Positions 106-14,332 of a stretch of 64,000 bases of DNA are shown piece by piece. Each line of letters opens with the position of its first letter. The first letter of the stretch is position 1. The translations under genes were made by a program, and so were the position numbers. The stretch is from Candidatus Puniceispirillum marinum IMCC1322 (GTDB taxonomy: Bacteria > Pseudomonadota > Alphaproteobacteria > Puniceispirillales > Puniceispirillaceae). The notes beneath the pieces are model-generated. The model did not search any database. It was not told the DNA's origin and saw only the letters and a program-made list of their open reading frames with translations. The stretch lies in NCBI RefSeq assembly GCF_000024465.1, contig NC_014010.1, forward strand, positions 682,001 to 746,000, in the 5' to 3' direction.

Positions 106-360
106 ATGACTCAGCTAGAAATCAAACGCGAAGCCCTTCGCAAGCCATTTAATCGCCGCCGCAAGTCTTGTCCATTTTCTGGCGCAAACGCGCCAAAGAT
201 CGACTATAAAGACACCAAGCTTCTGGCACGCTACACGTCAGAGCGCGGTAAAATCATTCCTTCACGTATTTCGGCTGTATCTGCGAAAAAGCAGCGTGAA
301 CTGGCAACCGCAATTAAGCGTTCGCGCTTTTTGGCGCTTATGCCTTACGTCATGTCATAG
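106..360 (+). CDS. rpsR: 30S ribosomal protein S18
   Basis: S18 is a small primary rRNA-binding protein of the 30S platform that pairs with S6. The 84-residue product has the family's usual length and core: a basic N-terminus, the segment around [20 protein letters not shown] (residues ~29-48), [20 protein letters not shown] (residues ~51-70) and a final [10 protein letters not shown]. The ATG follows the upstream TAA directly and has a GAGGAGG Shine-Dalgarno about 5 nt away. rplI follows after 30 nt with its own ribosome-binding site (AGGAGA), so the three ribosomal genes are almost certainly one transcript. Nothing about the protein is unusual. Confidence 0.97.
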
Positions 361-390
361 AAACAGCCATTCGATTTTAGGAGATACGAT

Positions 391-1047
391 ATGCAACTCA
401 TTTTGCTAGAACGCGTGGAAAAACTTGGACAGATGGGTGATCTCGTCACCGTCAAGCCAGGCTATGCACGCAACTTTCTGTTGCCACAGGGCAAAGCGCT
501 ACGTGCCAACAAATCCAACCGCGAACGGTTTGAAACCGAACGCGCCCAGCGTGAAGCTGATAACCTTTCCCGCCGTAGTGAAGCCGAGACCGAAGCTGGT
601 AAAATGGCTGGTCTGGCTGTCAATATGGTACGAGCAGCCTCAGAAATGGGTCAGTTATTTGGTTCGGTGACATCGCGTGATATTGCCGAAGCTGTTAGCG
701 AAGCTGGTTTTACCATTACCCGTTCACAGGTTGTTATGGACAAGTCGATTAAAACCCTTGGCCTGACCGACACGCGCATCCGGCTTCATCCAGAAGTGCA
801 TGTTGACATCATCGTCAATATTGCGCGCTCACTTGAAGAAGCCGAAACCCAGCTGAAAACAGGTGTTGCCGTTACCGGTGGTGTTCAGGATATTGACGAT
901 GAAGACGACAATATCAATGTTGCGGTTGCTGCTGTTGAAGCTGTTGAAGAAGCCGCGTCAGCCGAAGTTGAGACTGCCGAAGTTGAGGCCGAAAGTGCTG
1001 AAGCAGACGCATCTACAGACACAGACGAGTCATCTAAAGACGCTTAA
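391..1047 (+). CDS. rplI: 50S ribosomal protein L9 with long acidic C-terminal extension
   Basis: L9 binds 23S rRNA at the base of the L1 stalk and helps keep the reading frame. The N-terminal rRNA-binding domain is clear (residues 1-~45: LILLERVEKLGQMGDLVTVK followed by PGYARNFLLPQGKA), joined by a long charged helix to a C-terminal domain ending near residue 150. The protein has 218 residues against about 150 in the family. The extra ~60 are almost only Glu, Asp, Ala, Val, Ser and Thr, in AEVE/AEVEA-like units. The same operon's S6 also has a charged tail. The ATG has AGGAGA 6 nt upstream, and a strong intrinsic terminator follows the stop. Confidence 0.96.
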   Translation: MQLILLERVEKLGQMGDLVTVKPGYARNFLLPQGKALRANKSNRERFETERAQREADNLSRRSEAETEAGKMAGLAVNMVRAASEMGQLFGSVTSRDIAEAVSEAGFTITRSQVVMDKSIKTLGLTDTRIRLHPEVHVDIIVNIARSLEEAETQLKTGVAVTGGVQDIDDEDDNINVAVAAVEAVEEAASAEVETAEVEAESAEADASTDTDESSKDA

Positions 1048-1068
1048 AACTACATTTTAATGCACATC

Positions 1069-1097
1069 AAAGCCGGAGCCTGTCTCCGGCTTTTTTC
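1069..1097 (+). terminator. Intrinsic terminator after rplI
   Basis: A perfect 9-bp stem (AAGCCGGAG at 1070-1078, CTCCGGCTT at 1084-1092) closes a 5-nt loop and runs into a T-tract ending at 1096. It starts 22 nt after the rplI stop codon and separates the ribosomal protein operon from dnaB. Confidence 0.92.
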
Positions 1098-1117
1098 TGT
1101 TCTGCCGCGCCCAAAAA

Positions 1118-1159
1118 CTATCCACAGGCTAAGAGATGATTTTAAGGCACTTATCCCCA
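1118..1159 (+). promoter_or_regulatory. Two DnaA-box-like nonamers upstream of dnaB
   Basis: CTATCCACA (1118-1126) and TTATCCCCA (1151-1159) each differ by one base from the TTATNCACA DnaA box. They have the same orientation and lie 57-98 nt upstream of the dnaB start. They could tie dnaB expression to DnaA. Two near-matches can also arise by chance, and a related CTATCCACA occurs inside radA. Confidence 0.3.
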
Positions 1160-1215
1160 TCAAACTTAATCTTAACACCTCCTAATAACCAAAAAATTAG
1201 CCTACTATCTGGTTC

Positions 1216-2715
1216 ATGGCTGAAGAACAAACCAACATAAAACCCTTTCCAACTGGCGTATCTGGCACTGGCCCGACCCGGCAAATGCCACATAATTTGC
1301 CAGCCGAGCAAAATCTGCTTGGCGCGTTGTTGCTTGATAACAGTGTGATGGAGCGCATTGACGACCGTCTGCGCGCCGAACATTTTTACGATCCCCTTCA
1401 TGGGCGTATTTTCCAGACAATCATGCGGATGATCGAACGTGGGCAACTGGCGAATCCGGTAACGCTGAAAAGCTTTTTCACCGGCAGTGATGAATTCCCG
1501 GATTCGGACACCCAGAATTACCTTACAGATCTTGCCGATGGTGTTATCAGCATCAGTCAGGCACCCGATTATGCCCATACCATCCATGAGGCGCATCTGC
1601 GCCGTGAATTGATCCTGATCAGCGATCAGGTCATAACTGATGCAATCCAGCCTGAAGTCGATACCCCGGCATCAACCCAGATTGAAACGGCCGAAGCACA
1701 TTTGTTCCGTCTCGCTGAAAATGATACAGCCAGCACCGGATTACGCGGATTTGATACCATTGTCGCTGCCAGTGTTAATCAGGCAGATCTTGCGCGTAAG
1801 AATGATGGACATCTGTCAGGCTCCAGCACTGGTTTAACCGATCTGAATAATCTCTTGGGTGGTTTACAGCGGTCGGATCTGATCATTCTGGCTGGTCGTC
1901 CCGCAATGGGTAAAACCGCACTGGCAACGAATATCGCCTTTCATGCCGCAACAACGACAAAGACAGGTGAAGTCGCCAGTCCGGTTGCCTTTTTCTCACT
2001 GGAAATGGCCGCTGAACAGCTTGGCACACGTATCTTGAGCGAGCGCGCCAGGGTTGATTCGGAAAGTATCCGGCGCGGCAAACTGGATTCGCAGGAGTTT
2101 GACCAGCTGGTTGCCGCCAGTACCGCCATTTCATCAGCGCCATTCTATATTGATGATACGCCCGCCCTTTCTGTATCCCAGCTTGCCAGCCGTGCCCGTC
2201 GCCTGAAACGCACGTCTGGGCTTGGGGTTATCGTGGTTGACTATCTACAGCTTCTAACTGCCCAGCTTGGCGTTCGATCTGAAAACCGGGTGCAGGAAAT
2301 CTCCAATATCAGCCGTACATTAAAGGCAATAGCCAAAGAGCTTGATGTGCCTGTTCTGGCTTTGTCACAGTTATCACGTGCTGTTGAAATGCGTGAAGAC
2401 AAGCGCCCAAACCTGTCTGACTTGCGCGAGTCTGGATCGATTGAACAGGATGCCGATGTGGTGATGTTTGTCTATCGTGAGGAATATTATCTCAATAAAC
2501 GTGAACCTGAACAGAAAATGGAAGAGTCGGTTGATACCTTTAACATCCGCCATGCTGACTGGTTAAGCAAAATGCAAAGCGCCGAAAACAAGGCCGAAAT
2601 CATTGTTGCCAAGCAAAGACATGGTCCTACAGGTTCGGTGAATGTGCATTTCGAAAAGCGCTTTACCCATTTCACTGATCTGACCGAAAGCACCCATCTG
2701 CCTGAGGGTTTCTAA
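1216..2715 (+). CDS. dnaB: Replicative DNA helicase DnaB
   Basis: DnaB is the hexameric 5'-3' helicase that unwinds DNA ahead of the replisome and binds primase. The 499-residue product has the N-terminal helical domain (residues ~25-130, PHNLPAEQNLLGALLLDN), a linker, and the RecA-like C-terminal domain with Walker A GRPAMGKT (residues ~227-234), SLEM, the Walker B-like VVDYLQLL, SQLSRAVE, and a C-terminal RHGPTGSV loop. Length is normal and there is no intein. The ATG at 1216 has no evident Shine-Dalgarno. A TACTAT hexamer ends 7 nt before it, so a leaderless transcript is possible. alr follows after 2 nt and is probably co-transcribed. Confidence 0.97.
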   Translation: MAEEQTNIKPFPTGVSGTGPTRQMPHNLPAEQNLLGALLLDNSVMERIDDRLRAEHFYDPLHGRIFQTIMRMIERGQLANPVTLKSFFTGSDEFPDSDTQNYLTDLADGVISISQAPDYAHTIHEAHLRRELILISDQVITDAIQPEVDTPASTQIETAEAHLFRLAENDTASTGLRGFDTIVAASVNQADLARKNDGHLSGSSTGLTDLNNLLGGLQRSDLIILAGRPAMGKTALATNIAFHAATTTKTGEVASPVAFFSLEMAAEQLGTRILSERARVDSESIRRGKLDSQEFDQLVAASTAISSAPFYIDDTPALSVSQLASRARRLKRTSGLGVIVVDYLQLLTAQLGVRSENRVQEISNISRTLKAIAKELDVPVLALSQLSRAVEMREDKRPNLSDLRESGSIEQDADVVMFVYREEYYLNKREPEQKMEESVDTFNIRHADWLSKMQSAENKAEIIVAKQRHGPTGSVNVHFEKRFTHFTDLTESTHLPEGF

Positions 2716-2717
2716 AC

Positions 2718-3869
2718 ATGTCCACAGGTGATGAAAATGTGCTGGCGGCTTTTGGCGCGGCTGACAACCGCATTGACATTGATCTTGGCGCTATCGCCCA
2801 TAACTGGCTTTATCTTGACAGTTTATCCCCAAAAAGCACAATAACCGCCGCTATGGTTAAGGCAAATGGCTACGGTCTGGGCGCAAATCACGTTGGTGCA
2901 GCGCTCTATAAGGCTGGATGCCGCCAATTCTTTGTCGCCAATCTTGATGAAGCGGTGTCATTTCGTACCTATCTGGACAATATCAGCATATCCGACGCCC
3001 AGATCATGGTGCTACACGGATGCCACCGCGGTCAAGAACATGACATGCGCGCTTATCGACTGACACCTGTTTTGAATGATCTTGAGCAAGTGAGCCGCTG
3101 GCGCTTATATGCCCAGAATGCCAATGAGACCTATCCAGCTATGCTGCATCTGGATACTGGCATGACACGGCTTGGGTTTGATCCGGATCAGACTGACTGG
3201 CTGATTGAAAATAAACAGGCTTTGAACGGCCTTGAGATCACATATATCATGAGTCACCTGATTTCAGGAGAAATCAGCGACGACCCTGCCAATACTGCCC
3301 AGAAAACACGCTTTGACGAATATCGTAGCTTTTTTGGCGGTATCAAAGCCAGCCTTGCCAATAGTGGTGGCGTATTTCTGGGTAATGAATTTCACTATCA
3401 GATGACCCGACCTGGCATAGCCATTTATGGTGTTCATCCATGCGGTAAAGACCAAGCCATCACTGATTCAAACGGCTTAAAATCATGTATCACCTGGCAT
3501 GGACGCATTATTCAGGTGCGCACCGCCCCCGAAGGCGCAACGGTTGGTTATGGCGGCACGCATCGCCTATCTCGGCCGTCACGTATCGCAACCGTGGGTG
3601 TTGGTTATGCTGACGGCTATCAGCGCAATCTAAGCAACAAAGCTTTTGTAAATATTCTTGGACACCGTGCGCCAGTGATCGGCCGCATATCCATGGATAG
3701 CATCACGATTGATGTTACTGACATCCCACCCAATATCATGCTGAAAGCCGAAACCGCCGCGTTACTGAGCGATTTATACAGCATCGAAGATATGGCAAAT
3801 GATGCCAGCACAATTCCTTATGAAATACTGACAGGCATTAGCCGTCGTGCGATCAGACGCTATATTTAG
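2718..3869 (+). CDS. alr: Alanine racemase
   Basis: PLP-dependent interconversion of L- and D-alanine, supplying D-Ala for peptidoglycan. The PLP-binding lysine is visible in AAMVKANGYGLG (Lys48). The C-terminal half carries the GYADGYQR motif holding the catalytic tyrosine and the GRISMDSITIDVT strand typical of fold-III racemases. At 383 residues it has normal length. The ATG lies 2 nt behind the dnaB stop, with no room for an independent promoter. The dnaB-alr-radA neighbourhood is common in alphaproteobacteria. Confidence 0.95.
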   Translation: MSTGDENVLAAFGAADNRIDIDLGAIAHNWLYLDSLSPKSTITAAMVKANGYGLGANHVGAALYKAGCRQFFVANLDEAVSFRTYLDNISISDAQIMVLHGCHRGQEHDMRAYRLTPVLNDLEQVSRWRLYAQNANETYPAMLHLDTGMTRLGFDPDQTDWLIENKQALNGLEITYIMSHLISGEISDDPANTAQKTRFDEYRSFFGGIKASLANSGGVFLGNEFHYQMTRPGIAIYGVHPCGKDQAITDSNGLKSCITWHGRIIQVRTAPEGATVGYGGTHRLSRPSRIATVGVGYADGYQRNLSNKAFVNILGHRAPVIGRISMDSITIDVTDIPPNIMLKAETAALLSDLYSIEDMANDASTIPYEILTGISRRAIRRYI

Positions 3870-3954
3870 ATTACCTATAGCCAAAAAGTGCAAACATTGT
3901 CATAAATGTAACAGCTAAATATTCGGCGTAACGATCTATCAGGGTGACACATTT

Positions 3955-4731
3955 ATGACTGGCTTTGTGCGAAATATCGGTCGCGCCGTGCTGAATTTTT
4001 TGGCATCTCTTGGTCGCATAACGTTGTTCACCCTAGCTGCCATCCGCTGGACATTTTTTCCACCCTATTATTGGCAGCAATTATGGCGACAAACGCTTGA
4101 TATAGGGTACTATTCTTTACCTGTTGTTGGTTTGACAACGCTGTTTTCAGGCATGGTGCTCGCGCTTCAATCATATACTGGATTTGCACGCTTTTCTGCC
4201 GAAGATACGGTTGCAACTGTCGTGGTTCTATCTGTCACACGTGAGTTGGGCCCGGTCTTGGCTGGATTAATGGTTGCCGGACGGATCGGCGCGTCAATGG
4301 CCGCCGAAATTGGCACCATGCGCGTTACTGATCAGATTGATGCGCTCGACACGCTTTCCACCCGTCCTATGCAATATCTGGTTGCCCCTCGTATTATGGC
4401 AGGAACGTTATGCTTGCCATTTCTGGTTTTGATTGGCGATATTATTGGCGTGTTTGGCGGATATATCGTTGGGGTCTATAGGCTGGGCTTTAACCCATCG
4501 ATTTATCTATCGCGGACATTAGAATATCTGGAAGTTTCCGATATTACCCTTGGGTTGGTCAAAGCCGCCGTTTTCGGTTTTCTGATTGCCCTAATGGGTT
4601 GTTATCATGGCTATCATTCTGGGCGCGGCGCCGAAGGCGTTGGTCGCGCCACGACGAATGCGGTTGTGTCATCGTCAATCCTGATTTTGATCGCCAATTA
4701 TCTTGTTACAGCCCTGTATTTTGGAGTCTAG
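3955..4731 (+). CDS. mlaE: MlaE-family lipid ABC transporter permease
   Basis: Integral inner-membrane permease of the MlaE/YrbE family, which moves phospholipids or other lipids between the inner and outer membranes. The 258 residues form about five or six hydrophobic segments after an amphipathic N-terminal helix. The family signature around AAEIGTMRVTDQIDAL (residues ~115-130) is intact, and LGPVLAGLMVAGRIGASMAA precedes it. An AGGGTGA lies upstream of the ATG. The ATPase gene follows with no gap. No MCE substrate-binding protein (MlaD), MlaC or STAS protein (MlaB) is next to the pair, so its partners must be encoded elsewhere. The substrate is inferred from the family only. Confidence 0.9.
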   Translation: MTGFVRNIGRAVLNFLASLGRITLFTLAAIRWTFFPPYYWQQLWRQTLDIGYYSLPVVGLTTLFSGMVLALQSYTGFARFSAEDTVATVVVLSVTRELGPVLAGLMVAGRIGASMAAEIGTMRVTDQIDALDTLSTRPMQYLVAPRIMAGTLCLPFLVLIGDIIGVFGGYIVGVYRLGFNPSIYLSRTLEYLEVSDITLGLVKAAVFGFLIALMGCYHGYHSGRGAEGVGRATTNAVVSSSILILIANYLVTALYFGV

Positions 4732-5514
4732 ATGATGCCGACACCCAAAATCGAACTTGCAGGCGTTACCAAGTCATTTGACGGTAAACAGATTTTGCGC
4801 GGCATCGATATTTCAGTCGATGCCGAAGAATCGCTTTGTATCATTGGCACCTCGGGCTGTGGCAAATCAGTCTCTCTCAAATGTCTGCTGGGGCTAATTG
4901 TGGCAGATGGTGGGTCGATCAAGATTGATGGTCAGGAAATATTAGGCGCAAATCGTAAAAAGCTCGAAGCCGTAAGGCGGCGCTTTGGCATGACTTTTCA
5001 GTTTGGCGCGTTATTTGATTCCTTGCCGATATGGCAAAACGTAACCTTTCGTCTGGTTCAAAGTCAGAAAATGTCGCGCGATGAGGCTCGGCAAATCGCC
5101 AAACATACCATTACCCAACTTGGCCTTGCCCCTGATGTAATTGATCAATATCCGGCCGAATTATCTGGGGGTATGCAAAAACGCGTGGCGCTAGCTCGCG
5201 CCATTGCCGACAAGCCCGAAATTTTGCTTTTCGACGAACCCACATCCGGGCTTGATCCAATAACAGGCGGTGTGATTGATAGCCTGATTGTTGATGCTGT
5301 CAAACGCCTTGGCGCGACCGCTATTACCATCAGTCATGACATGGCATCTGTACGGCGAATTGCTGACAAGGTTGCGATGATCCATAATGGTGTCATTATC
5401 TGGTGCGGACCAGTGGCCAAAATGGATGATAGCGGCGTTCCCGAAGTGCATCAGTTTGTGCATGGCCTTGCTGAGGGCCCACTGACAAGACCCTCGCAAA
5501 AGGGACATAATTGA
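4732..5514 (+). CDS. mlaF: MlaF-family lipid ABC transporter ATP-binding protein
   Basis: ATPase that powers the preceding MlaE-type permease. The 260-residue protein has Walker A GTSGCGKS (residues ~39-46), a Q-loop (FQFGALFDSLPIWQN), the ABC signature LSGGMQKRVALARA (from ~residue 144), Walker B ILLFDEPTSGLDP (from ~164) and a switch histidine in TISHDM. Phe-Gly-Ala-Leu-Phe-Asp after the Q-loop is typical of MlaF. The gene starts directly behind the permease stop, at ATGATG, so the second ATG at 4735 is equally possible. Its TGA overlaps the radA ATG by one base, so the pair sits within the alr-radA transcript. Confidence 0.93.
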   Translation: MMPTPKIELAGVTKSFDGKQILRGIDISVDAEESLCIIGTSGCGKSVSLKCLLGLIVADGGSIKIDGQEILGANRKKLEAVRRRFGMTFQFGALFDSLPIWQNVTFRLVQSQKMSRDEARQIAKHTITQLGLAPDVIDQYPAELSGGMQKRVALARAIADKPEILLFDEPTSGLDPITGGVIDSLIVDAVKRLGATAITISHDMASVRRIADKVAMIHNGVIIWCGPVAKMDDSGVPEVHQFVHGLAEGPLTRPSQKGHN

Positions 5515-6884
5515 TGGCACGATCATCGGTCAGCTTTGTGTGCCAGCAATGCGGCGCGACATCACCAAAATGGTCAGGCCGTTGCGACGATTGTGGAGCT
5601 TGGAATACGCTTGCCGAAGAACGCAATGAAGCCCCTTCAGGGCCAGGCAAACGTAGTCAGGGTCGTCGCATATCGCTTGAAGCACTGGATCTTCCGCCCG
5701 ACACTAAACCATTACCGCGACATCTATCACATATTTCAGAATTTGATCGTGTATCCGGAGGTGGGCTCGTGCCTGGCTCGGCAACCTTGATTGGCGGTGA
5801 TCCCGGTATTGGCAAATCAACCTTGTTATTGCAACTTGTTTGCAAGCTGGCATCTGGTGGATTGAAAGCAGCCTATATTTCGGGAGAAGAATCAGCCGAT
5901 CAGGTGCGCATGCGCGCACGGCGTCTTGGGCTAAGCGATACCAATGTGCAATTAGCCACCGCCACCAATGCCAGTGATATCGCCGCGTCACTTGGTGGTG
6001 TTGATGGCCCCGATGTTATTGTCATAGACTCGATACAGACTATGTATCTGCCCACATTAGACTCGGCGCCAGGAACGGTCTCGCAGGTACGTGCGACAGC
6101 ACAGGAACTCATTCGGTCTGCAAAACAGCAAGGTGCTGCCTTGTTGATTGTTGGGCATGTGACCAAGGACGGAGCCATCGCTGGCCCCCGTGTGCTTGAA
6201 CATATGGTGGATTCAGTACTGTATTTTGAAGGTGATCGCTCGCATCATTTCCGCATTCTGCGCAGTGTTAAAAACCGGTTTGGTGCTACGGATGAAATTG
6301 GCGTCTTCGAAATGGTTGAAACCGGGCTTGCCGAAGTGCCCAACCCATCCGAACTATTTCTGGCTGACCGCCGTGACGAGGTCACTGGCGCGGTTGTTTT
6401 TGCCGGCATCGAGGGAAGCCGTCCACTTCTGGTTGAAATAGAAGCGCTTGTTGCCCCTTCATCTCTGGCCTCACCCAGACGGAACGTGGTGGGATGGGAC
6501 AGTAGCCGCCTTGCCATGCTAACAGCAGTTCTCGAAGCCCGATGCGGTGTTCCCTTGTCAGGCCGGGATATTTTTCTGAATGTAGCTGGTGGTATGAAAA
6601 TATCCGAAACAGCCGCAGATTTGGCGGTGGCCGCAGCTTTGATCTCGTCAGTAACCGGACGACCTGCGCCTAAACGCACTGTGTTTTTTGGCGAAGTCGC
6701 TTTATCAGCCGAATTACGTCAGGTGGCGCAGGCCGAATCACGGTTGAAAGAAGCGGCAAAGCTGGGTTTTGATAATGCAATCATGCCACGACCGCGTAAA
6801 AAACTATCCACATCGTCAAAAATATCTGTTGCTCAGCCATCTACATTATCTGACCTGATTGACATTATGGGGGGAATGACATGA
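5514..6884 (+). CDS. radA: DNA repair protein RadA
   Basis: RadA (Sms) is a RecA-like helicase-type ATPase that processes recombination intermediates by branch migration. Domains in order: a four-cysteine zinc finger (CQQCG and CDDCG within residues ~9-30), a RecA core with Walker A GGDPGIGKST (residues ~94-103), the RadA-specific KNRFG motif (~residue 253), and a Lon-protease-like C-terminal domain. The ATG at 5514 overlaps the upstream TGA. A TTG three bases earlier is possible but less likely. At 456 residues the length is normal. cvpA follows after 43 nt. Confidence 0.96.
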   Translation: MARSSVSFVCQQCGATSPKWSGRCDDCGAWNTLAEERNEAPSGPGKRSQGRRISLEALDLPPDTKPLPRHLSHISEFDRVSGGGLVPGSATLIGGDPGIGKSTLLLQLVCKLASGGLKAAYISGEESADQVRMRARRLGLSDTNVQLATATNASDIAASLGGVDGPDVIVIDSIQTMYLPTLDSAPGTVSQVRATAQELIRSAKQQGAALLIVGHVTKDGAIAGPRVLEHMVDSVLYFEGDRSHHFRILRSVKNRFGATDEIGVFEMVETGLAEVPNPSELFLADRRDEVTGAVVFAGIEGSRPLLVEIEALVAPSSLASPRRNVVGWDSSRLAMLTAVLEARCGVPLSGRDIFLNVAGGMKISETAADLAVAAALISSVTGRPAPKRTVFFGEVALSAELRQVAQAESRLKEAAKLGFDNAIMPRPRKKLSTSSKISVAQPSTLSDLIDIMGGMT

Positions 6885-6927
6885 TGTTAGTTACATTGTA
6901 TTACCTGCTGCCACTTTGGGCTCAAAA

Positions 6928-7587
6928 ATGATTGATTTTTCCGTCCTTAATTTAGTTGATTATGGCATAGTGATTGTCTTGGTCGTTTCGGCGCTGTTTT
7001 CAACCTTGCGCGGTATGACCCGCGAATTTCTTGGCATCGTTGGCTGGGTTATTTCGGTTTTTGTCGCCAAGCTAAGCGCCCCTGCCCTTGAACCTTTAAT
7101 AGCCGAGATCATCAATATTGAAGGGCTGTCGTCAGCCTTATCATGGGCATTACCATTTGCCATTACCGTCGTCGTATGGTTTGTGATTGCAAGCCTGATG
7201 TCACCAGGTCTGAAACGGGCGGGACTGGGCAGTCTTGATCGATGGCTTGGCGTTATTTTCGGGCTTGTAAGAGGCTATGTCATTGTCCTAATTGCCTATA
7301 TGACAGCAGTCGTCGCTCTTGATGGTGAAAGCAAACTTCCTGATATTGTGACCGAGGCTTATAGCACGCCATTTATGCGCCAAAGCGTCCACAGTCTGTC
7401 AGGCGTGATTCCCGAAGAAATGCGCGACAATCTGCTGGAAAATGTGCCTCTGGACGATGGCACAGGCGATAAAGAGCTTATTGACACTGACGAAGTCCCA
7501 ATTTCTGATGCCCCATTATCTGATATCAGTAAAACGGCAAGTGATAACCTCGATCTATTAGCTGACGAGGCTGAAAAGGTCGAATGA
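6928..7587 (+). CDS. cvpA: CvpA family membrane protein
   Basis: CvpA-family inner-membrane protein, named for colicin V production in E. coli and frequently encoded just before purF, as here. The 219-residue product has the family N-terminus (LNLVDYGIVIVLVVSALFST followed by LRGMTREFLGIVGW), four predicted membrane helices in residues ~10-135, and a hydrophilic acidic tail. I start it at the ATG at 6928 (MIDFSVLNLVDY). An in-frame TTG at 6916 would add four residues. The molecular function of the family is not established, and the link to purine synthesis is by context. Confidence 0.9.
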   Translation: MIDFSVLNLVDYGIVIVLVVSALFSTLRGMTREFLGIVGWVISVFVAKLSAPALEPLIAEIINIEGLSSALSWALPFAITVVVWFVIASLMSPGLKRAGLGSLDRWLGVIFGLVRGYVIVLIAYMTAVVALDGESKLPDIVTEAYSTPFMRQSVHSLSGVIPEEMRDNLLENVPLDDGTGDKELIDTDEVPISDAPLSDISKTASDNLDLLADEAEKVE

Positions 7588-7683
7588 GCATCTTATGCAC
7601 TATATCGGCTTCTTGACGACCAACGGCTTAAAGAGGATAACCTGACACACAATATGATTGCGCGTTATAACAGGGAAAATTGC

Positions 7684-9135
7684 ATGACTGGTGTTTCCAC
7701 AAATCCATTCGATGACGACCATTTTCACGAAGAATGTGCAATCTTTGGCATATATGGTACCCCTGAATCGAGCGTTCATACAGCCCTTGGCCTTCATGCG
7801 CTTCAGCATCGCGGCCAAGAAGCATCGGGCATTGTCAGCTTTGACGGCAAAGATTTTCACGCACATCGCGGTGTCGGCCATGTTGGTGAAAACTTTGATG
7901 CTAATTCAGCACCGATGCAGGCTCTCAAAGGCCATATCGCCATTGGGCATAATCGCTACTCGACAACAGGTCCATCGGAAGTGCGCAATATTCAGCCTTT
8001 CTCATCCGAGCTGGCCTTTGGTGGCTTTGCTTTGGCGCATAATGGAAACTTGACCAATGCGGCACGTTTGCGCGCATCGCTTGTTGAAACAGGTAGCCTG
8101 TTCCAATCATCTACAGATACAGAAATCATCGTTCACCTTGTCGCACGGTCTCATCAGCAGGGTGTTAGCAACCGATTGATTGACGCGCTGAAACAGATCG
8201 AAGGCGCCTATTCACTAGTTTGCATCGCCGATGACATGCTGATTGGCGTTCGTGATCCTCATGGTGTACGTCCACTTGTATTGGGCAAACGTGATGACGC
8301 CTATGTGCTGTCATCTGAAACATGTGGATTAGATATTGTTGGCGCCGAATTTGTTCGTGATCTTTTGCCTGGCGAAATGGTTGTCATCGACAAAACCGGC
8401 ATTACGTCAATCATGCCATTTCAAGAACAGCCATCGCGCTTCTGCATTTTTGAATATATCTATTTTGCCCGCCCCGACAGTATACTTGAAGGACGCGGCG
8501 TTTATCACGCGCGCAAATCTATCGGTGCTGAACTGGCTACTGAGTCGCATGTTGATGCTGATCTGGTTGTTCCCGTGCCAGATTCAGGTTTGCCCGCCGC
8601 AATTGGTTATGCGCAGGCAGCAAACATACCGTTCGAGTTAGGTATCATCCGGAATCATTATATTGGCCGTACCTTTATCCAGCCAACACAGAAAGGGCGC
8701 ACCGACTCGGTCAAGATGAAGCATAATGCGAATTCATCGGCGGTTGCTGGCAAACGTGTAATTCTGGTCGATGACTCTATTGTCCGTGGCACAACGTCGC
8801 GTAAGATTGTTCTGATGATGCGCGCGGCTGGTGCCACCGAAGTGCATATGCGCATAGCCAGCCCGCCAACGATTAACCCTTGTTTTTACGGTGTGGACAC
8901 GCCGGATAAAGATCAACTTATCGCCGCCCAGATGTCTGTTGATGATATAGCCAAGGAAATTGGCGTTGATAGTCTCAGCTTTATCTCGATTGATGGTCTA
9001 TATCGCGCCATGGGAGAAGCACGACGCGACCCCGATTGCCCACAGTTTTGCGACGCCTGTTTCACGGGTGATTACCCAATCAAGCTGGCCACGGGTCTGT
9101 CGGCAAAGCGCGTTTCACATGGTGTGATTAACTAA
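7684..9135 (+). CDS. purF: Amidophosphoribosyltransferase
   Basis: First committed step of de novo purine synthesis: glutamine + PRPP to 5-phosphoribosylamine. The N-terminal nucleophile Cys lies in EECAIFGIYG after a 17-residue propeptide (MTGVSTNPFDDDHFHEE) that is presumably cleaved off. The glutaminase half contains GHNRYSTTG, and the PRPP loop is VILVDDSIVRGTTS. Four cysteines fit the B. subtilis-type [4Fe-4S] ligands (in FCIFEYIYF, NPCFYG and FCDACFTGDYP). Start choice: the ATG at 7684 gives a propeptide of normal length. An upstream in-frame ATG at 7654 would add ten atypical residues. The other purine genes are at 25-30 kb. Confidence 0.96.
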   Translation: MTGVSTNPFDDDHFHEECAIFGIYGTPESSVHTALGLHALQHRGQEASGIVSFDGKDFHAHRGVGHVGENFDANSAPMQALKGHIAIGHNRYSTTGPSEVRNIQPFSSELAFGGFALAHNGNLTNAARLRASLVETGSLFQSSTDTEIIVHLVARSHQQGVSNRLIDALKQIEGAYSLVCIADDMLIGVRDPHGVRPLVLGKRDDAYVLSSETCGLDIVGAEFVRDLLPGEMVVIDKTGITSIMPFQEQPSRFCIFEYIYFARPDSILEGRGVYHARKSIGAELATESHVDADLVVPVPDSGLPAAIGYAQAANIPFELGIIRNHYIGRTFIQPTQKGRTDSVKMKHNANSSAVAGKRVILVDDSIVRGTTSRKIVLMMRAAGATEVHMRIASPPTINPCFYGVDTPDKDQLIAAQMSVDDIAKEIGVDSLSFISIDGLYRAMGEARRDPDCPQFCDACFTGDYPIKLATGLSAKRVSHGVIN

Positions 9136-9187
9136 ATTCGTATTTACCAAAGACGTAATTAACCAAATACAGGAATCATTTCAAACC

Positions 9188-9913
9188 ATGAGCAGTCAAG
9201 ATCTTGATGGCAAGCTGATACTTGTAACAGGTGCAAGCCGGGGCATTGGCCGTGCTGTGGCCATTGCCGCCGCACAAGCTGGTGCCGAGTTGATTATTAC
9301 CGGTCGAACCATGGGCGCGCTGGAAGAAACTGACGATGCGATTAAATCAGCCGGAAGCAAAGCGACAATTGTTGAACTTGATATGGCTGACACCCCTGCC
9401 ATTCCAAGATTGGCCAGTGCCATTCAAGGGCGCTGGGGACATCTTGATGGCCTCGTTGCCAATGCTGGCATGATTGGGCCTTTAACGCCTGTATCGCATC
9501 ATGAAGAAAGCGTTTGGAATAACACCATTATGATAAATCTGACCGCGCAATGGCATCTGATAAAGGCGATGGAGCCTTTGCTTTTGCAAAGTGATGCAGG
9601 CCGTGCGATTCTTGTATCATCGGGGGCGGCAAGTAACCCGCGTGCTTTCTGGGGTGCCTATGCTGCGTCAAAAGCTGGGCTTGAAGCATTGGGCATATGC
9701 TGGGCGGCAGAAACCGAACAAACAAATCTGCGGGTGAACATGATCAATCCCGGCGCAACGGCAACTCTTATGCGCGCTTCGGCATTTCCCGGCGAAGATC
9801 CAAGCACGATTCCGGCACCCGAAGATATAGCCCCTGCTTTCGTCACTTTGCTCAGCCCGGCCTGCACATCGCATGGCAAAGTCGTTGCAGCCCGCGAGAT
9901 GCTTGGCCTTTAA
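9188..9913 (+). CDS. SDR family NAD(P)-dependent oxidoreductase
   Basis: Short-chain dehydrogenase/reductase with a Rossmann fold. Cofactor motif GASRGIGR (residues ~16-23), the NAG motif (VANAGMIGP), the SSGAA strand end and the catalytic YAASK (Tyr ~157, Lys ~161) are all present. At 241 residues it has the usual length. An AGGAA lies 12 nt before the ATG. It follows purF in many alphaproteobacteria, but the substrate cannot be told from sequence. The short C-terminus ends convergently against the restriction-modification gene, 72 nt away, and no terminator is visible between them. Confidence 0.92.
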   Translation: MSSQDLDGKLILVTGASRGIGRAVAIAAAQAGAELIITGRTMGALEETDDAIKSAGSKATIVELDMADTPAIPRLASAIQGRWGHLDGLVANAGMIGPLTPVSHHEESVWNNTIMINLTAQWHLIKAMEPLLLQSDAGRAILVSSGAASNPRAFWGAYAASKAGLEALGICWAAETEQTNLRVNMINPGATATLMRASAFPGEDPSTIPAPEDIAPAFVTLLSPACTSHGKVVAAREMLGL

Positions 9914-9985
9914 AAGGTACGGTATTTCCTTCTTCAAGGTTTCTACTTCCTCGCTCTTTAGTAAATCATATATCAGTGACATTAT

Positions 9986-12358
9986 TTATTGAATTTTTAG
10001 CCCAATCAACTTTGCCTCAAGTGTTGAAAAACTTGGGGAGCTATCCAAAATATGTAGTTTTATTCCGGTTATGTCAATTTTGCCGTTTTTCATCGGCACA
10101 CGTATTCTCACATCTTGAACCATTCTCTTTACACTACATTTACGATAATAGTCATATCGCCATGAACAGTTGTTAATCTCCTCGCAAATGTAAAGTTTTA
10201 GCGCAGGGTCATTAGGTATTTCGTCTAGCAAGTTACAAATCAGCACATCTGAGACAGCGCCAAACTGATAGGGATGATAGAATGCTTTACCACCACTGCC
10301 ATTTGCACTTATTGTAATAAGATCAAATTTAATCTGATCAGTGGGAACATCATACATCCCATGAACACCATTGTTGCTTTCTCTAGTAGTGATGAGGGGA
10401 ACCTTGCCCGCTCCCAATCCCTTCGCTGGTGGACATTGCCCTCTTCGAGGTTGTATCAATTCAGAAATTTGGAATTCCCTGATTTCCTTTGCCGCGATTA
10501 TGAAGGGTGCATTTTTGGCTTCCACGCTTTCGAGCATTTTAAGCACCCCAGCGATACTTTTTTCTGGCGCAATACTTATTTTTTCACTACTTGAGAGATA
10601 AGCTTCAGACGCAAAGTCATATAGCCCGTCAAGTTTGAGCGGCGAAAGAATTTTCTCGCGAGGTTTAGCACCTATTTTTGTGTCTCCTATTTGCATAAAT
10701 TTGCGTAAGTCGTCCGTAATTTCATTCATATTATCTTGTGCTGTTGCCTTTGCGATTAACTTTGATTTTTGTGAAGCGCTTTGACCGTCAAAAAGAATGC
10801 CAAAGTAAACCAAATCATCAATTCTGTGAGGCCTCCATGTTTCTAAAATAATGGCGTATGTGCCCTTGTTCGCGACTGGGTAGAATAGGTCATCTTGCAT
10901 TCTGATGACCGCTTTAACAGTGTGTTGTAATAAGAGGTTCTTTCGCCACTTTTTATGATCGTCGCCCGTGATCGGTCCATTAGGCAGTATGGCAAACAGC
11001 TTTGCACTTGGTGCAGCTTGAAGAATGGCGTGATCAACAAAGTCACACTCAGGCTCAGAAACTGCAAATGGTGGGTTCATAAAAATTCTAGTAAATGGCC
11101 CAGACGCCTTATTAGGTTCGCATTCACTAGCAGATTGTCGTTTAACCGTCTTGCTCAGCATATTAAATTGATTGTCAAAGCAATTACCGTTGTGAATTTT
11201 GCTACTACCATCGCCACGGAAAATCATATTGACTAATGCAATACTAAAGACACGATCCGATTGTTCAATCCCGTAAAGGTTATCATTACGGAAGGCATCG
11301 AACTTTTCCCCATCAGTCTGCTGGCAAGTTTCACGCACCTTATCTAATGCCGCAACCAAAAAACCACCAGTGCCACACGTTGGATCATAAATGACATCAT
11401 GTGCCCCAACACCGACAACCTCTGCTGCAAATTTGGTTATGTGACGAGGAGTGAGGACAATTCCCATTTCACTTGCATCATTAGCATACTTCAAAAAAGT
11501 TTCATAAAATTGACCTAGTGCATCTGCACCACTATTGATCGCCGACCGTACGTTCATCTCTCTAAGATGCTGAACTGTCCTTACAATTGCTCTTCTATAT
11601 TTGAAATGGTTTTCAGCGGTTGCCGGAAGTTTCAGCGTTACTTGGTCAAAAAAAACAAGCTTACCATGAATTTTCAGCAACGCTTCAATTCTAGCGTTAA
11701 TATCATTTACCAAGGTGGCAGGGTCATTATTGAGACTCATGTCGTTGTCTTTGACCAGTGCAAGTAACAGGCCAGCCACAAGGCAAGCTCGCTCGCTCGC
11801 GGTAACAGCGTTGATGTGTAGGTCATGATTGATTTCGTTTGCTTTCACCAGAAATTCATCAAGATTAACTTCATACCCACCAATAGAAGGAGAATTAGAC
11901 TCAATTATTTGGATGCATTGAGATTGTGATATAAAACCAGTAGTGGCATAGTTGTTTATAGTTATATCCTGCCAATTATCACCGTCCCAGAATTTAGTTT
12001 GTACTATGATGGATTCATCTGGTGATCCTGCAACGGCTGACACCAATCTTGCAGGTGAGGTGCCACTCGCCATGTTGATCACTTCACAATACGTTTGCGC
12101 TTCTTTTAGGGCAACTGACAAATCATCCGTCTTACTTTTTGCTTCTATAACCCAATAACAAACCTCAGACCCTGACTCAAAGACGACTATGTTTTCTGGC
12201 TTTTTCAGCCCGAGTCCATCGGCAAGAGTCTTATCATGTTTGAAAAACTCCCCTTGCGTATAAACTGATCCTCCTTTTGATGGATTGCGAATGTCCCAAC
12301 CCAACGTACGCAAATTTTCGGTTATATACTTATATGATCTGAATTCGCTGTCAGTCAT
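9986..12358 (-). CDS. Single-chain restriction-modification protein (Type IIG / Type I-like N6-adenine methylase fusion)
   Basis: A 790-residue fusion. Residues ~1-130 resemble the N-terminal nuclease domain of Type I HsdR, with P54-E55 before WVIEAKSK (E72-x-K74), a candidate PD-(D/E)xK site in which the usual Asp is Glu. Residues ~190-560 form an HsdM-type N6-adenine methyltransferase: helical bundle, SAM motif DPTCGTGG (~323-330) and catalytic NPPF (~427). Residues ~610-790 resemble a target-recognition domain of BcgI/HsdS type (LITTRES, ISANGSGGKAFYH). No helicase domain and no separate hsdR or hsdS are nearby, so one polypeptide could cut, methylate and recognise DNA. The gene is AT-richer than its flanks by eye and sits alone between two housekeeping genes, which suggests acquisition. 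It could also be a methylase whose nuclease is dead. Confidence 0.82.
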   Translation of the reverse strand: MTDSEFRSYKYITENLRTLGWDIRNPSKGGSVYTQGEFFKHDKTLADGLGLKKPENIVVFESGSEVCYWVIEAKSKTDDLSVALKEAQTYCEVINMASGTSPARLVSAVAGSPDESIIVQTKFWDGDNWQDITINNYATTGFISQSQCIQIIESNSPSIGGYEVNLDEFLVKANEINHDLHINAVTASERACLVAGLLLALVKDNDMSLNNDPATLVNDINARIEALLKIHGKLVFFDQVTLKLPATAENHFKYRRAIVRTVQHLREMNVRSAINSGADALGQFYETFLKYANDASEMGIVLTPRHITKFAAEVVGVGAHDVIYDPTCGTGGFLVAALDKVRETCQQTDGEKFDAFRNDNLYGIEQSDRVFSIALVNMIFRGDGSSKIHNGNCFDNQFNMLSKTVKRQSASECEPNKASGPFTRIFMNPPFAVSEPECDFVDHAILQAAPSAKLFAILPNGPITGDDHKKWRKNLLLQHTVKAVIRMQDDLFYPVANKGTYAIILETWRPHRIDDLVYFGILFDGQSASQKSKLIAKATAQDNMNEITDDLRKFMQIGDTKIGAKPREKILSPLKLDGLYDFASEAYLSSSEKISIAPEKSIAGVLKMLESVEAKNAPFIIAAKEIREFQISELIQPRRGQCPPAKGLGAGKVPLITTRESNNGVHGMYDVPTDQIKFDLITISANGSGGKAFYHPYQFGAVSDVLICNLLDEIPNDPALKLYICEEINNCSWRYDYYRKCSVKRMVQDVRIRVPMKNGKIDITGIKLHILDSSPSFSTLEAKLIGLKIQ

Positions 12359-12361
12359 TGT

Positions 12362-12384
12362 GATGCCCTCCCATTTAGGGCATC
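12362..12384 (-). promoter_or_regulatory. Hairpin over the ribosome-binding site of the restriction-modification gene
   Basis: On the minus strand a perfect 8-bp inverted repeat (GATGCCCT / AGGGCATC, 7-nt spacer) ends 3 nt before the ATG. The GGAGG Shine-Dalgarno, 8 nt from the ATG, lies across the loop and the 3' arm. Folded RNA would hide the ribosome-binding site. Read as DNA, the palindrome could also be an operator. Confidence 0.6.
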
Positions 12385-12499
12385 TAGCTTAGTTACAAAA
12401 GGTAAAGAAAAGGTTTACAGACCGGAATTAAACATTACTTAAATCAAACATATTGATCCCTCGACAAAAAACTGACTTAAAAAGATTATCTATAAACGT

Positions 12500-14332
12500 T
12501 CACCGCATCCTGAAGCGGAACGGATCAAGTGCATGACAGATATCACGCGCCAGCGATACTGGCGTGCCGGTAATTTCGGCGGCCAGCATATCCCCAAGCA
12601 AAGGCGCAAAGGTCATGCCGCGCGCACCCAGTGCCCCCAGACAATAGATACGATCCCCAAGATGCCCCATGATCGGGTTACGATCCGGCGTGCTGGCACG
12701 CTGGCTCATGCGGCCTATAAAACCACCCGTAACATCTGGCACCTCAATCAATCCGGCCATACCGTCAGGTAGCAGGTTCATATTATGGGCATGTCCCTGA
12801 TCAGTGACAGTCATGGCGGCAGTGCGGTCAAATGTGGCACCAAGCTCGTGAAACCCATTATATGCAGGCGTCAGATAGCCACCAAAGCTCAGCCCAGATT
12901 GCAATGGCTGCACGGCATTATTCGTAGGAATATGGCTAACTTGTCCCGAAGTCACGTCAAGCGGAATACCGCTTTTATGCAGATGTGACAGAATCTGGCT
13001 GATATTGGCGCCGCCAGCTAGCACGACAGCGCTATATGCTTCGCTCATGTCGCCATTAATGCGGAAGGTCTGCGCATCCAGCTGGGTTATATCCGTAACC
13101 TTGGTTGCCAAAGACAAGGACGCCCCCGCGGCAAGGCGCTCGACATATTTGACCGGATTGATGATGCGACCATAATCATGTACGGCGCCGCCAAGCGGAA
13201 GTGCGATAGCTGACAAAGCAGAGGCTTCATCGGCATCGACAAAACGCATCAGGCTATCTGGCCAGAATTGCCGCCTGAATTTATCCTGTCGCACGGCTTC
13301 GCGGTTTGGCCAATCCAGCGAAATCACATTGTGGGCAACACTGCAATCAAGTGCGTCAGATAATCTGGCCGCAAAGGACAAACACATTGATGATAGCTGA
13401 CTGGCAAGATTATGATCGACAGCCAGCCTTGGGCTTTGCACAGCCATACGGTTGCCGGATGCCCCGCTTGCCAGCTTTGGCGCACTGTCAAAAATAGTCG
13501 CGCTGACACCTCGCCTGTTCAGGCCGGACGCAATTGACGCACCCGCTATACCGCCACCAATAATGGCCACCTGTTTGATACCATCTGCACGAGTGGCCAG
13601 AGGGGCAACAAGCGGCTTTATCCCGGTTAACATATGGCGTTTGCGGCCAAAGCCGGGGCATTTTTCAACGACAAAGCCAGCCCCTTGAAGGGCGTCTCTT
13701 ACGCCGCTGGCCACCGTAAAGCTAGACAATGTTCCGCCTTGGCGCGTTAACCGGCCAACATGACCCAGTATATCTTTGTCCCACATAGCCATATTTTTGG
13801 CGGGACTGAACCCATCAAGAAACCAGGCATCAGCCCGAAAATCCATCTCGGCCAGCATGTCCTCTGCCTGTCCGTAAAGCAGGTGTAGCCGTAGCCGCCC
13901 ATCAAGCAAAGGCACCATATGCGTCCCTGGCCAGCGCGGTGGCATAGCCGCACGTAAAGTTTCAGCATACAAAGCGACCTCGGCAAAGGGCGCATGCGCA
14001 CGTGCAAGGTCATCCAGCCTAAGTGGGCACGCTTCGAGTGAGATATAATCCAGTTGCAGGTTGGGAAACTTATCCATCTCGGCCATCACTGCCAGCAGAT
14101 TCAACCCCGTACCAAATCCCGTTTCGGCAATGGTGAAATGTGACGCATCTTGCAGCCGAAAGGGTAAATCATTTCCACTTAGAAATACGTGGCGGCTTTC
14201 AGCCAAGCCGCCTTCAGCCGAAAAATAGACATCATCATAGTCATCAGCACGCAGAATATCATCGCGCCAGCTCAGCTTCGCTTCAGCCAGTCGATAATCT
14301 GCACCATCATGCATATGTAGGTTTTCTGCCAT
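12500..14332 (-). CDS. mnmC: Bifunctional tRNA wobble-uridine modification enzyme MnmC
   Basis: Completes 5-methylaminomethyl-(2-thio)uridine at position 34 of certain tRNAs. The N-terminal MnmD-like methyltransferase domain (residues ~1-235) has ETGFGTGLNLL as its SAM motif and a WFLDGFSPAKNMAMW segment. The FAD-dependent oxidase domain begins at the dinucleotide motif IIGGGIAGASIA (~residue 254) and runs to the end, including GALGARGMTFAPLLG. At 610 residues it is slightly shorter than E. coli MnmC (about 670) but both domains are complete. The gene diverges from the cfa-like gene across 129 nt. Confidence 0.94.
   Translation of the reverse strand: MAENLHMHDGADYRLAEAKLSWRDDILRADDYDDVYFSAEGGLAESRHVFLSGNDLPFRLQDASHFTIAETGFGTGLNLLAVMAEMDKFPNLQLDYISLEACPLRLDDLARAHAPFAEVALYAETLRAAMPPRWPGTHMVPLLDGRLRLHLLYGQAEDMLAEMDFRADAWFLDGFSPAKNMAMWDKDILGHVGRLTRQGGTLSSFTVASGVRDALQGAGFVVEKCPGFGRKRHMLTGIKPLVAPLATRADGIKQVAIIGGGIAGASIASGLNRRGVSATIFDSAPKLASGASGNRMAVQSPRLAVDHNLASQLSSMCLSFAARLSDALDCSVAHNVISLDWPNREAVRQDKFRRQFWPDSLMRFVDADEASALSAIALPLGGAVHDYGRIINPVKYVERLAAGASLSLATKVTDITQLDAQTFRINGDMSEAYSAVVLAGGANISQILSHLHKSGIPLDVTSGQVSHIPTNNAVQPLQSGLSFGGYLTPAYNGFHELGATFDRTAAMTVTDQGHAHNMNLLPDGMAGLIEVPDVTGGFIGRMSQRASTPDRNPIMGHLGDRIYCLGALGARGMTFAPLLGDMLAAEITGTPVSLARDICHALDPFRFRMR

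Follow-up and report, generated by a model that had tools for sequence, protein, structure and literature searches.

A restriction-modification enzyme that carries a nuclease, a methylase and a single target recognition domain (TRD) in one chain is of a kind already known, though little studied, and the layout itself has been published. Its described form is HaeIV of Haemophilus aegyptius, a single-chain Type IIB/IIG enzyme written as 2R~gM~[GAY] in one account (PMC3874165) and presented there and in a second source (PMC4081073) as a homodimer that reads the symmetric site GAY N5 RTC, cuts on both sides and has no separate methylase. Two further systems serve for comparison: BcgI (BcgIA + BcgIB, Type IIB), in which a separate S subunit carries two TRDs, and BsaXI (structures 8W0P, 8W2P and 8W2Q), in which a 916-residue RM chain with a paddle region joins a separate two-TRD S and works as (RM)2S. 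IS1595-family elements that carry passenger genes have likewise been described (PMC3129680, PMC5704250).

The window considered here, by which we mean the whole 64,000-nucleotide stretch of DNA that was analysed, comes from Candidatus Puniceispirillum marinum IMCC1322, which is placed in the SAR116 clade (PMC3368413). It contains a gene whose product, P0001, compares with each of these systems in a different way. Judged by the published description of HaeIV, both proteins have R, gamma-M and one TRD per chain, in the same order. The methylase and recognition domain of P0001 match the PADLOC models for Type IIG enzymes and Type II specificity subunits and in this respect resemble BcgI, but unlike in BcgI the TRD is fused and single, and no separate S gene was found in a genome search with Methylase_S, which is insensitive to divergent TRDs. 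A Type IIB system of the BcgI form was rejected on these grounds and because the neighbouring genes are SDR and mnmC. The BsaXI RM chain is similar in its methylase (E 3e-30), weakly so in its nuclease fold (Z 5.2), and in the spacing of its catalytic residues; its length, paddle region and separate S set it apart. Taken together, we consider it likely that P0001 is a complete one-protein Type IIG/IIB restriction-modification system of HaeIV layout, that it works as a homodimer on a symmetric site in two parts, and that its gene arrived as a single-gene insertion.

Domain organization of P0001

The gene occupies positions 9986-12358 on the minus strand as an intact open reading frame of 790 residues, with an ATG start and no internal stop codons, in the place and orientation that the original prediction had given, and a search of the whole IMCC1322 genome (one contig, 2,753,527 bases) with the protein returned this single match. 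Relatives align over nearly its whole length at 41-51% identity. The chain begins with a predicted nuclease domain (residues 1-140; positions 11939..12358), delimited by an AlphaFold2 model and by conservation of its motif (P54-E55, E72-x-K74 and the upstream acid E37). A mostly helical connector follows (residues 141-277; 11528..11938), drawn at low to medium confidence from the secondary structure of the whole-chain model, and leads into a gamma-class N6-adenine methyltransferase (residues 278-590; 10589..11527) with the motifs DPTCGTGG (325-332) and NPPF (428-431). At the junction between the methylase and the recognition domain, the same model predicts a helix (residues 598-616; 10511..10567), a candidate connector or dimerisation helix that should be read with caution because residues 590-623 have a pLDDT under 50. 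The single TRD lies at about residues 624-762 (10073..10489), all of these features being on the minus strand. The whole-chain model is of poor quality (pLDDT 61.3, pTM 0.37); Type I methylases and BsaXI head its list of Foldseek matches. The motif positions, including E55, E72 and K74, agree with those first proposed, and the order of the domains together with their matches supports the initial view that this is a Type IIG-type enzyme made as a single chain and bearing one recognition domain.

Methylase, target recognition and proposed mode of action

That the central part is a HsdM-type N6-adenine methylase, as originally proposed, is borne out by a Pfam match to N6_Mtase (PF02384) spanning residues 278-550 (E 5.6e-26), with NPPF in the same chain. 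The solved structures that match this part are of HsdM type, to which a profile search adds the BsaXI RM chain, and the PADLOC model REase_MTase_IIG matches at E 9.3e-37, the match being confined to residues 274-503. The tail, in turn, was thought to resemble the recognition subunits of BcgI and HsdS, and this also stands. Specifically, PADLOC Specificity_II covers residues 648-757 (E 3.9e-7), Pfam Methylase_S gives a weak match below its cut-off at residues 625-705 (E 0.027), and residues 626-762 align to either half of a two-TRD, BcgI-B-like S protein found at locus L003: residues 653-762 to the second half (34% identity over 126 columns) and residues 626-742, more weakly, to the first. The two PADLOC models, for Type IIG enzymes and Type II specificity, have lengths of 637 and 341, from which we take them to be BcgI-like. 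One TRD thus stands at the C-terminus of the RM chain, and its 790 residues leave no space for a second. The only other N6_Mtase match in the IMCC1322 genome is a 262-residue open reading frame (28.1 bits, over the cut-off), presumably a TrmN6-like RNA methylase.

Other families of systems built around such a methylase were considered. BREX PglX and MADS2 were rejected, as their weak matches are confined to the methylase or its surroundings and lie far below the cut-offs (MAD2 49.1 bits against a cut-off of 720, PglX about 10 bits against 500-900). A Type I system, with P0001 as the HsdM of an hsdRMS set, was rejected because the chain has its own N-terminal domain and HSDR_N (PF04313) has no match in the whole IMCC1322 genome, a search that was positive in 9 of 14 control genomes. 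Methylase_S (PF01420) likewise has no match across the whole genome. Neither search detects the P0001 gene itself, so that both would miss divergent domains; with that reservation they agree with the initial remark that no HsdR or HsdS gene lies nearby, the flanking genes being SDR and mnmC.

A single recognition domain per chain is compatible with more than one mode of action. In the Eco57I/MmeI layout, which likewise has one recognition domain per chain according to the description in PMC3874165, the enzyme would act on a continuous asymmetric site, methylate one strand and cut on one side, and a weak match of P0001 to the Pfam family MmeI_Mtase (E 0.0011, below the cut-off) could be taken in the same sense. 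Against this, the recognition domain of P0001 resembles half of a BcgI-B/HsdS-type subunit, and in the majority of the related stand-alone S proteins with a match, two such halves are found, which makes an Eco57I/MmeI-like action distinctly unlikely in our view.

We instead favor a HaeIV-like mode of action, in which P0001 would be a homodimer (or larger), because its parts and their order are those of HaeIV and the chain could not accommodate a second recognition domain. The argument for the dimer, for a symmetric bipartite site and for a two-sided cut is one from architecture. Two copies of P0001 would pair with their recognition domains facing each other, in the manner of the paired halves within an HsdS or BcgI-B subunit, and the dimer would read a symmetric site made up of a short half-site, a gap and the inverted half-site. 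One adenine in each half-site, on opposite strands, would be methylated. Half-methylated host DNA would be re-methylated, and fully unmethylated, foreign DNA would be cut at fixed distances on both sides, with nuclease domains pairing between enzyme molecules for cutting. The gene itself was acquired by insertion, as one gene, between SDR and mnmC.

The predicted nuclease domain

The proposal of a HsdR_N-like nuclease module at the N-terminus finds no confirmation in profiles, although the motif and the predicted fold fit it. A search of this region against nuclease families, which the original prediction had put forward as a check, turned up no nuclease family in the Pfam matches of P0001 (E up to 1) or in those of any sequence in the 17-member alignment (E up to 0.1), and the single NCBIfam match to this region, which aligns residues 9-96 with an EcoAI-type R subunit, is weak (E 0.06). 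Hence, as Pfam finds no nuclease family, the assignment rests on motif and predicted fold. The AlphaFold2 model of residues 1-140 (pLDDT 78.5, pTM 0.78) consists of strands 56-62 and 65-74, a helix at 77-98 and strands 103-111 and 116-124; E55 immediately precedes the first of these strands, and E72-x-K74 lies at the end of the second. An acid before one strand and an ExK ending the next is the arrangement expected of PD-(D/E)xK enzymes. The suggested E55/E72/K74 site is therefore placed canonically by structure prediction, but the fold matches are weak and mixed. Foldseek returned no match for the model at E up to 0.001, and in VIA-align, where every Z is under 8, the top match is a non-nuclease, the pheromone precursor 2qx2 (Z 6.8, rmsd 3.9, 122 residues aligned), with many PD-(D/E)xK nucleases ranking below it. 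These lower matches include 3ijm (Z 5.7), bunyavirus cap-snatching endonucleases (Z about 5), the REase domain of BsaXI (8w2p residues 30-183; Z 5.2, rmsd 4.3, 117 aligned) and DrdV (Z 4.8, rmsd 4.0, 98 aligned).

The catalytic residues offer a second line of comparison. In BsaXI, alanine mutants of E73, D90, E105 and K107 in the nuclease domain abolish cleavage, and the paddle residues D816/E823 are required in addition, as described in PMC11997821. The corresponding spacing is 17, 15, 2 in BsaXI and 18, 17, 2 for E37/E55/E72/K74 in P0001, a comparison of spacing and not of aligned positions. For BcgI, our literature search found no publication giving the catalytic residues.

The Glu that stands where an Asp is usual in the nuclease motif had raised the suspicion of a dead nuclease, and P0001 might accordingly be viewed as a solitary methylase with a decayed nuclease domain, a view in keeping with an N-terminus that nuclease profiles do not recognise. 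Across an alignment of 17 sequences (the window protein and 16 relatives), however, Glu is the commoner state at this position (Glu in 13, Asp in 3, another residue in 1), the preceding proline is kept in 16/17, P[E/D] is found in 16/17, and the ExK of E72/K74 is present in all 17; among the seven close members, E37, E55, E72 and K74 are all invariant. Selection could be measured on one pair of relatives, L040 and L041, the sole pair close enough and each about 51% identical to P0001, for which dN/dS is 0.069 overall, 0.052 in the nuclease, 0.036 in the methylase and 0.151 in the recognition part. By this sequence-based measure, the nuclease domain of L040/L041 is under purifying selection (dN/dS about 0.05). 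Because Glu for Asp is the usual state, ExK is invariant and the nuclease is under purifying selection in L040/L041, decay is not indicated; we regard a solitary methylase as very improbable, and the nuclease of P0001 is probably active.

A single-gene insertion between SDR and mnmC

The gene order in the window is purF, SDR, the P0001 gene, mnmC and cfa (names from NCBIfam), with SDR at 9188-9913 on the plus strand and mnmC at 12500-14332 on the minus strand. The segment from the SDR stop codon to the mnmC stop codon (9914..12499) is an insertion: mnmC is present in 56 of the 61 family genomes, and its best 30 loci were compared, one of them being the window's own. In 29/29 of the others, SDR and mnmC converge side by side with a gap of -6 to 75 bp, as compared with a stop-to-stop distance of 2586 bp in the window. 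The segment is absent from every one of these 29 loci, which upholds the idea that the gene interrupts a conserved chromosomal run. The same can be said of its AT-richness, since its GC content of 41.5% (48.3% in the rest of the window) lies below that of every one of the 228 stretches of equal size taken from elsewhere in the window, whose minimum is 43.0%. The P0001 gene is a clean one-gene insertion. Beyond mnmC, the cfa homologue is in several pieces at the relatives' loci L058, L065, L071 and L078, reflecting either broken genes or assembly errors.

Relatives and the forms they take

Within the order, 13 of 136 genomes match P0001, and besides its own genome one matches along the whole length (G129, 47%); within the class, 10 of 385 match (E up to 1e-20), with two others near full length (G319 and G412, about 51%), and a sample of the phylum gives 11 matching genomes of 398. 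A scan of a contig collection found nothing with the single protein as query and seven loci with a four-row alignment as query, two of which are the same contigs as G319 and G129. In all, there are eight distinct near-full-length relatives at 41-51% identity: L087 (the same as L040), L088 (the same as L039), L041, L089, L090, L091, L092 and L093. Record titles, available for seven of the eight, assign them to Rhodospirillaceae, SAR116, Gammaproteobacteria (three), Poribacteria and Acidimicrobiia. The L089 gene is split over two frames (677 and 175 residues), and the listed open reading frame of L091, near a contig end, starts late. Given these relatives, and given that HaeIV is a published example of the layout (PMC3874165), the suspicion that P0001 is an uncommon variant is not supported. 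A phage or plasmid gene was considered and rejected: by tblastn, none of 776 matching plasmid records and none of 71 matching phage records cover 80% or more of P0001, and non-exhaustive pattern scans of IMG/VR with a few short peptides found no relative.

More distant relatives divide the same functions differently, and they form a series from RM with a two-TRD S, through RM with a one-TRD S, to the fused single TRD. An RM chain with a separate S protein, recognised by BLAST match, is found at L003, L048, L050, L051, L052 and L055; at L003, for example, an RM of 624 residues accompanies a separate two-TRD S of 333. Fused single-TRD chains of about 800 residues occur at L042, L043 and perhaps L044. 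For L003, L048 and L049, PADLOC classes the split chains as Type IIG plus Type II specificity subunit. Several of these loci show features of their own. At L049 (2544-4816), an RM of 606 residues has a separate one-TRD S of 153 residues and is the unfused counterpart of the layout in the window. At L051 (2346-4010), a 554-residue S-like protein adjoins a 639-residue RM, and three separate stretches of it match the recognition domain of P0001. L045 (166-5032), L046 (2951-7754) and L047 (2517-7371), from three genomes within the order, each contain tandem open reading frames of about 780-820 residues with an 11-base overlap, and in each pair one matches the methylase part of P0001.

IS1595-family elements that carry relatives

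An IS1595-family transposase (PF12762) adjoins the gene in five of the eight relatives (L040, L041, L089, L090 and L091), the L087/L040 transposase being assigned to the family through a family search and because it is 97% identical to its L041 counterpart. The transposase lies downstream and convergent in L040, L041, L090 and L091; in L089 it lies upstream, its stop overlapping the start of the gene (PF12762 E 1e-39). Inverted repeats bound four of the five transposase-linked relatives, with 8-bp target duplications in two (L040 and L089). The L040 element (1660-5208) has repeats matching at 19/24 positions and the target duplication AAAATAAA; the L041 element (306-3852; 20/24) is without duplication, the L090 element (5923-9368; 19/24) is without an exact one, and the L089 element (4930-8542; 23/24) has the 8-bp duplication TTTAAATA. 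L089 hence shows the transposase, terminal inverted repeats and 8-bp target duplication of an IS1595-family transposon. In L091, the right repeat was found (3475-3500), and a search of the 141 bases that precede the match, up to the contig end, gave no left repeat. The remaining three relatives (L088/L039, L092 and L093) have no adjoining transposase by tblastn with three transposases, and no convincing repeats.

A split BcgI-like system (628-residue RM, 327-residue S) is similarly enclosed at L048 (2815-6867) in an element with an IS1595 transposase (NCBIfam IS1595, E 1.4e-55), all in one direction, the RM start overlapping the end of the transposase reading frame; its repeats differ at one position in 20, and it is flanked left and right by AAAAAAAG, a low-complexity duplication. 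L053, a more distant split system, has an IS1595 transposase nearby and a doubtful repeat pair. Separately, a second copy of the left repeat occurs in L041 at 5429-6532, followed by an RM-gene fragment (residues 3-41) and what is left of an L089-type IS1595 transposase; together these seem to be the relic of another element.

It is worth considering how often such repeats arise by chance. When each locus was shuffled 60 times and repeats with at most the observed number of mismatches in 20 were counted, none of the shuffles was as good for L089 or L048, one was for L041, three for L040, three for L090 and 48 for the window. With shuffled sequence occasionally doing as well for L040, L041 and L090, the case for these three depends on the 12 bases that are identical at the two ends, on the homology of L040 and L041 (92.5% identity over 3.56 kb), which stops at the inverted repeats, and on the L040 target duplication; the repeats of L040 and L041 start with CGCGATTATCCC at both ends. 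The adjacency of the transposases is unlikely to be chance, because their background density is low, with 7, 11, 2 and 1 matches to the family per genome for L040, L041, L048 and L053, respectively.

In light of these elements, the window copy might be an immobilised derivative of an IS1595-type transposon, an origin compatible with the other readings of P0001 and recommended by the five of eight relatives that adjoin IS1595 transposases, four of them between inverted repeats. The window itself points the other way. No transposase of the IS1595 family was matched in the IMCC1322 genome, no inverted repeat round the insertion stands out (the best has 7 mismatches in 20, equalled by 48 of 60 shuffles), the IS1595 core repeat was sought at the window copy and not found, and the sole 8-bp direct repeat at the insertion, AAAAGGTA at 9912 and 12397, is about what chance would give (simple arithmetic puts the expectation at ~0.3 for the pair of stretches that were compared). 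The window copy as a present IS1595-family transposon was rejected, there being neither a transposase gene nor terminal inverted repeats, and an immobilised derivative we think rather unlikely.

The elements around the relatives, and not the window copy, share an IS1595-family transposase, terminal inverted repeats (of 25 bp in the known elements) and target duplication with tISCpe8/MTnSag1, as the latter are described in PMC5704250. They differ in cargo, which in tISCpe8 is lincomycin resistance, going by the cited title, and in the relatives' elements a restriction-modification gene or gene pair. Among the titles listed by a literature search of limited journal coverage, none concerned restriction-modification cargo in IS1595 elements. 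We put at about even the chances of a broader reading, in which IS1595-family transposons repeatedly carry complete Type IIB/IIG systems, both HaeIV-like single-gene and BcgI-like split ones, with no fewer than two transposase subgroups and two gene orders involved, and in which the IMCC1322 gene belongs to this travelling lineage though its own copy no longer shows a transposon.

Implications

The chief points are the clean single-gene insertion and the transposon-borne relatives, the latter concerning other genomes. P0001 offers a compact example of the HaeIV form from a cultured host within SAR116, a group of abundant ocean bacteria. With one nuclease, one methylase and one TRD per chain, it would be a simple homodimer in which to ask how Type IIB enzymes match their catalytic parts to their recognition parts. 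Likewise, the RM chains with a two-TRD S, with a one-TRD S and with a fused TRD provide a natural series in which to consider the interconversion of Type I-like, BcgI-like and HaeIV-like forms.

The relatives span Alpha- and Gammaproteobacteria, Poribacteria and Acidimicrobiia by their record titles, and those that are transposon-borne, if confirmed, would be a concrete vehicle by which whole restriction-modification systems cross phyla. If IS1595-family transposons do repeatedly carry complete systems, such a cargo would give the transposon a self-contained means of host addiction together with defence against phage.
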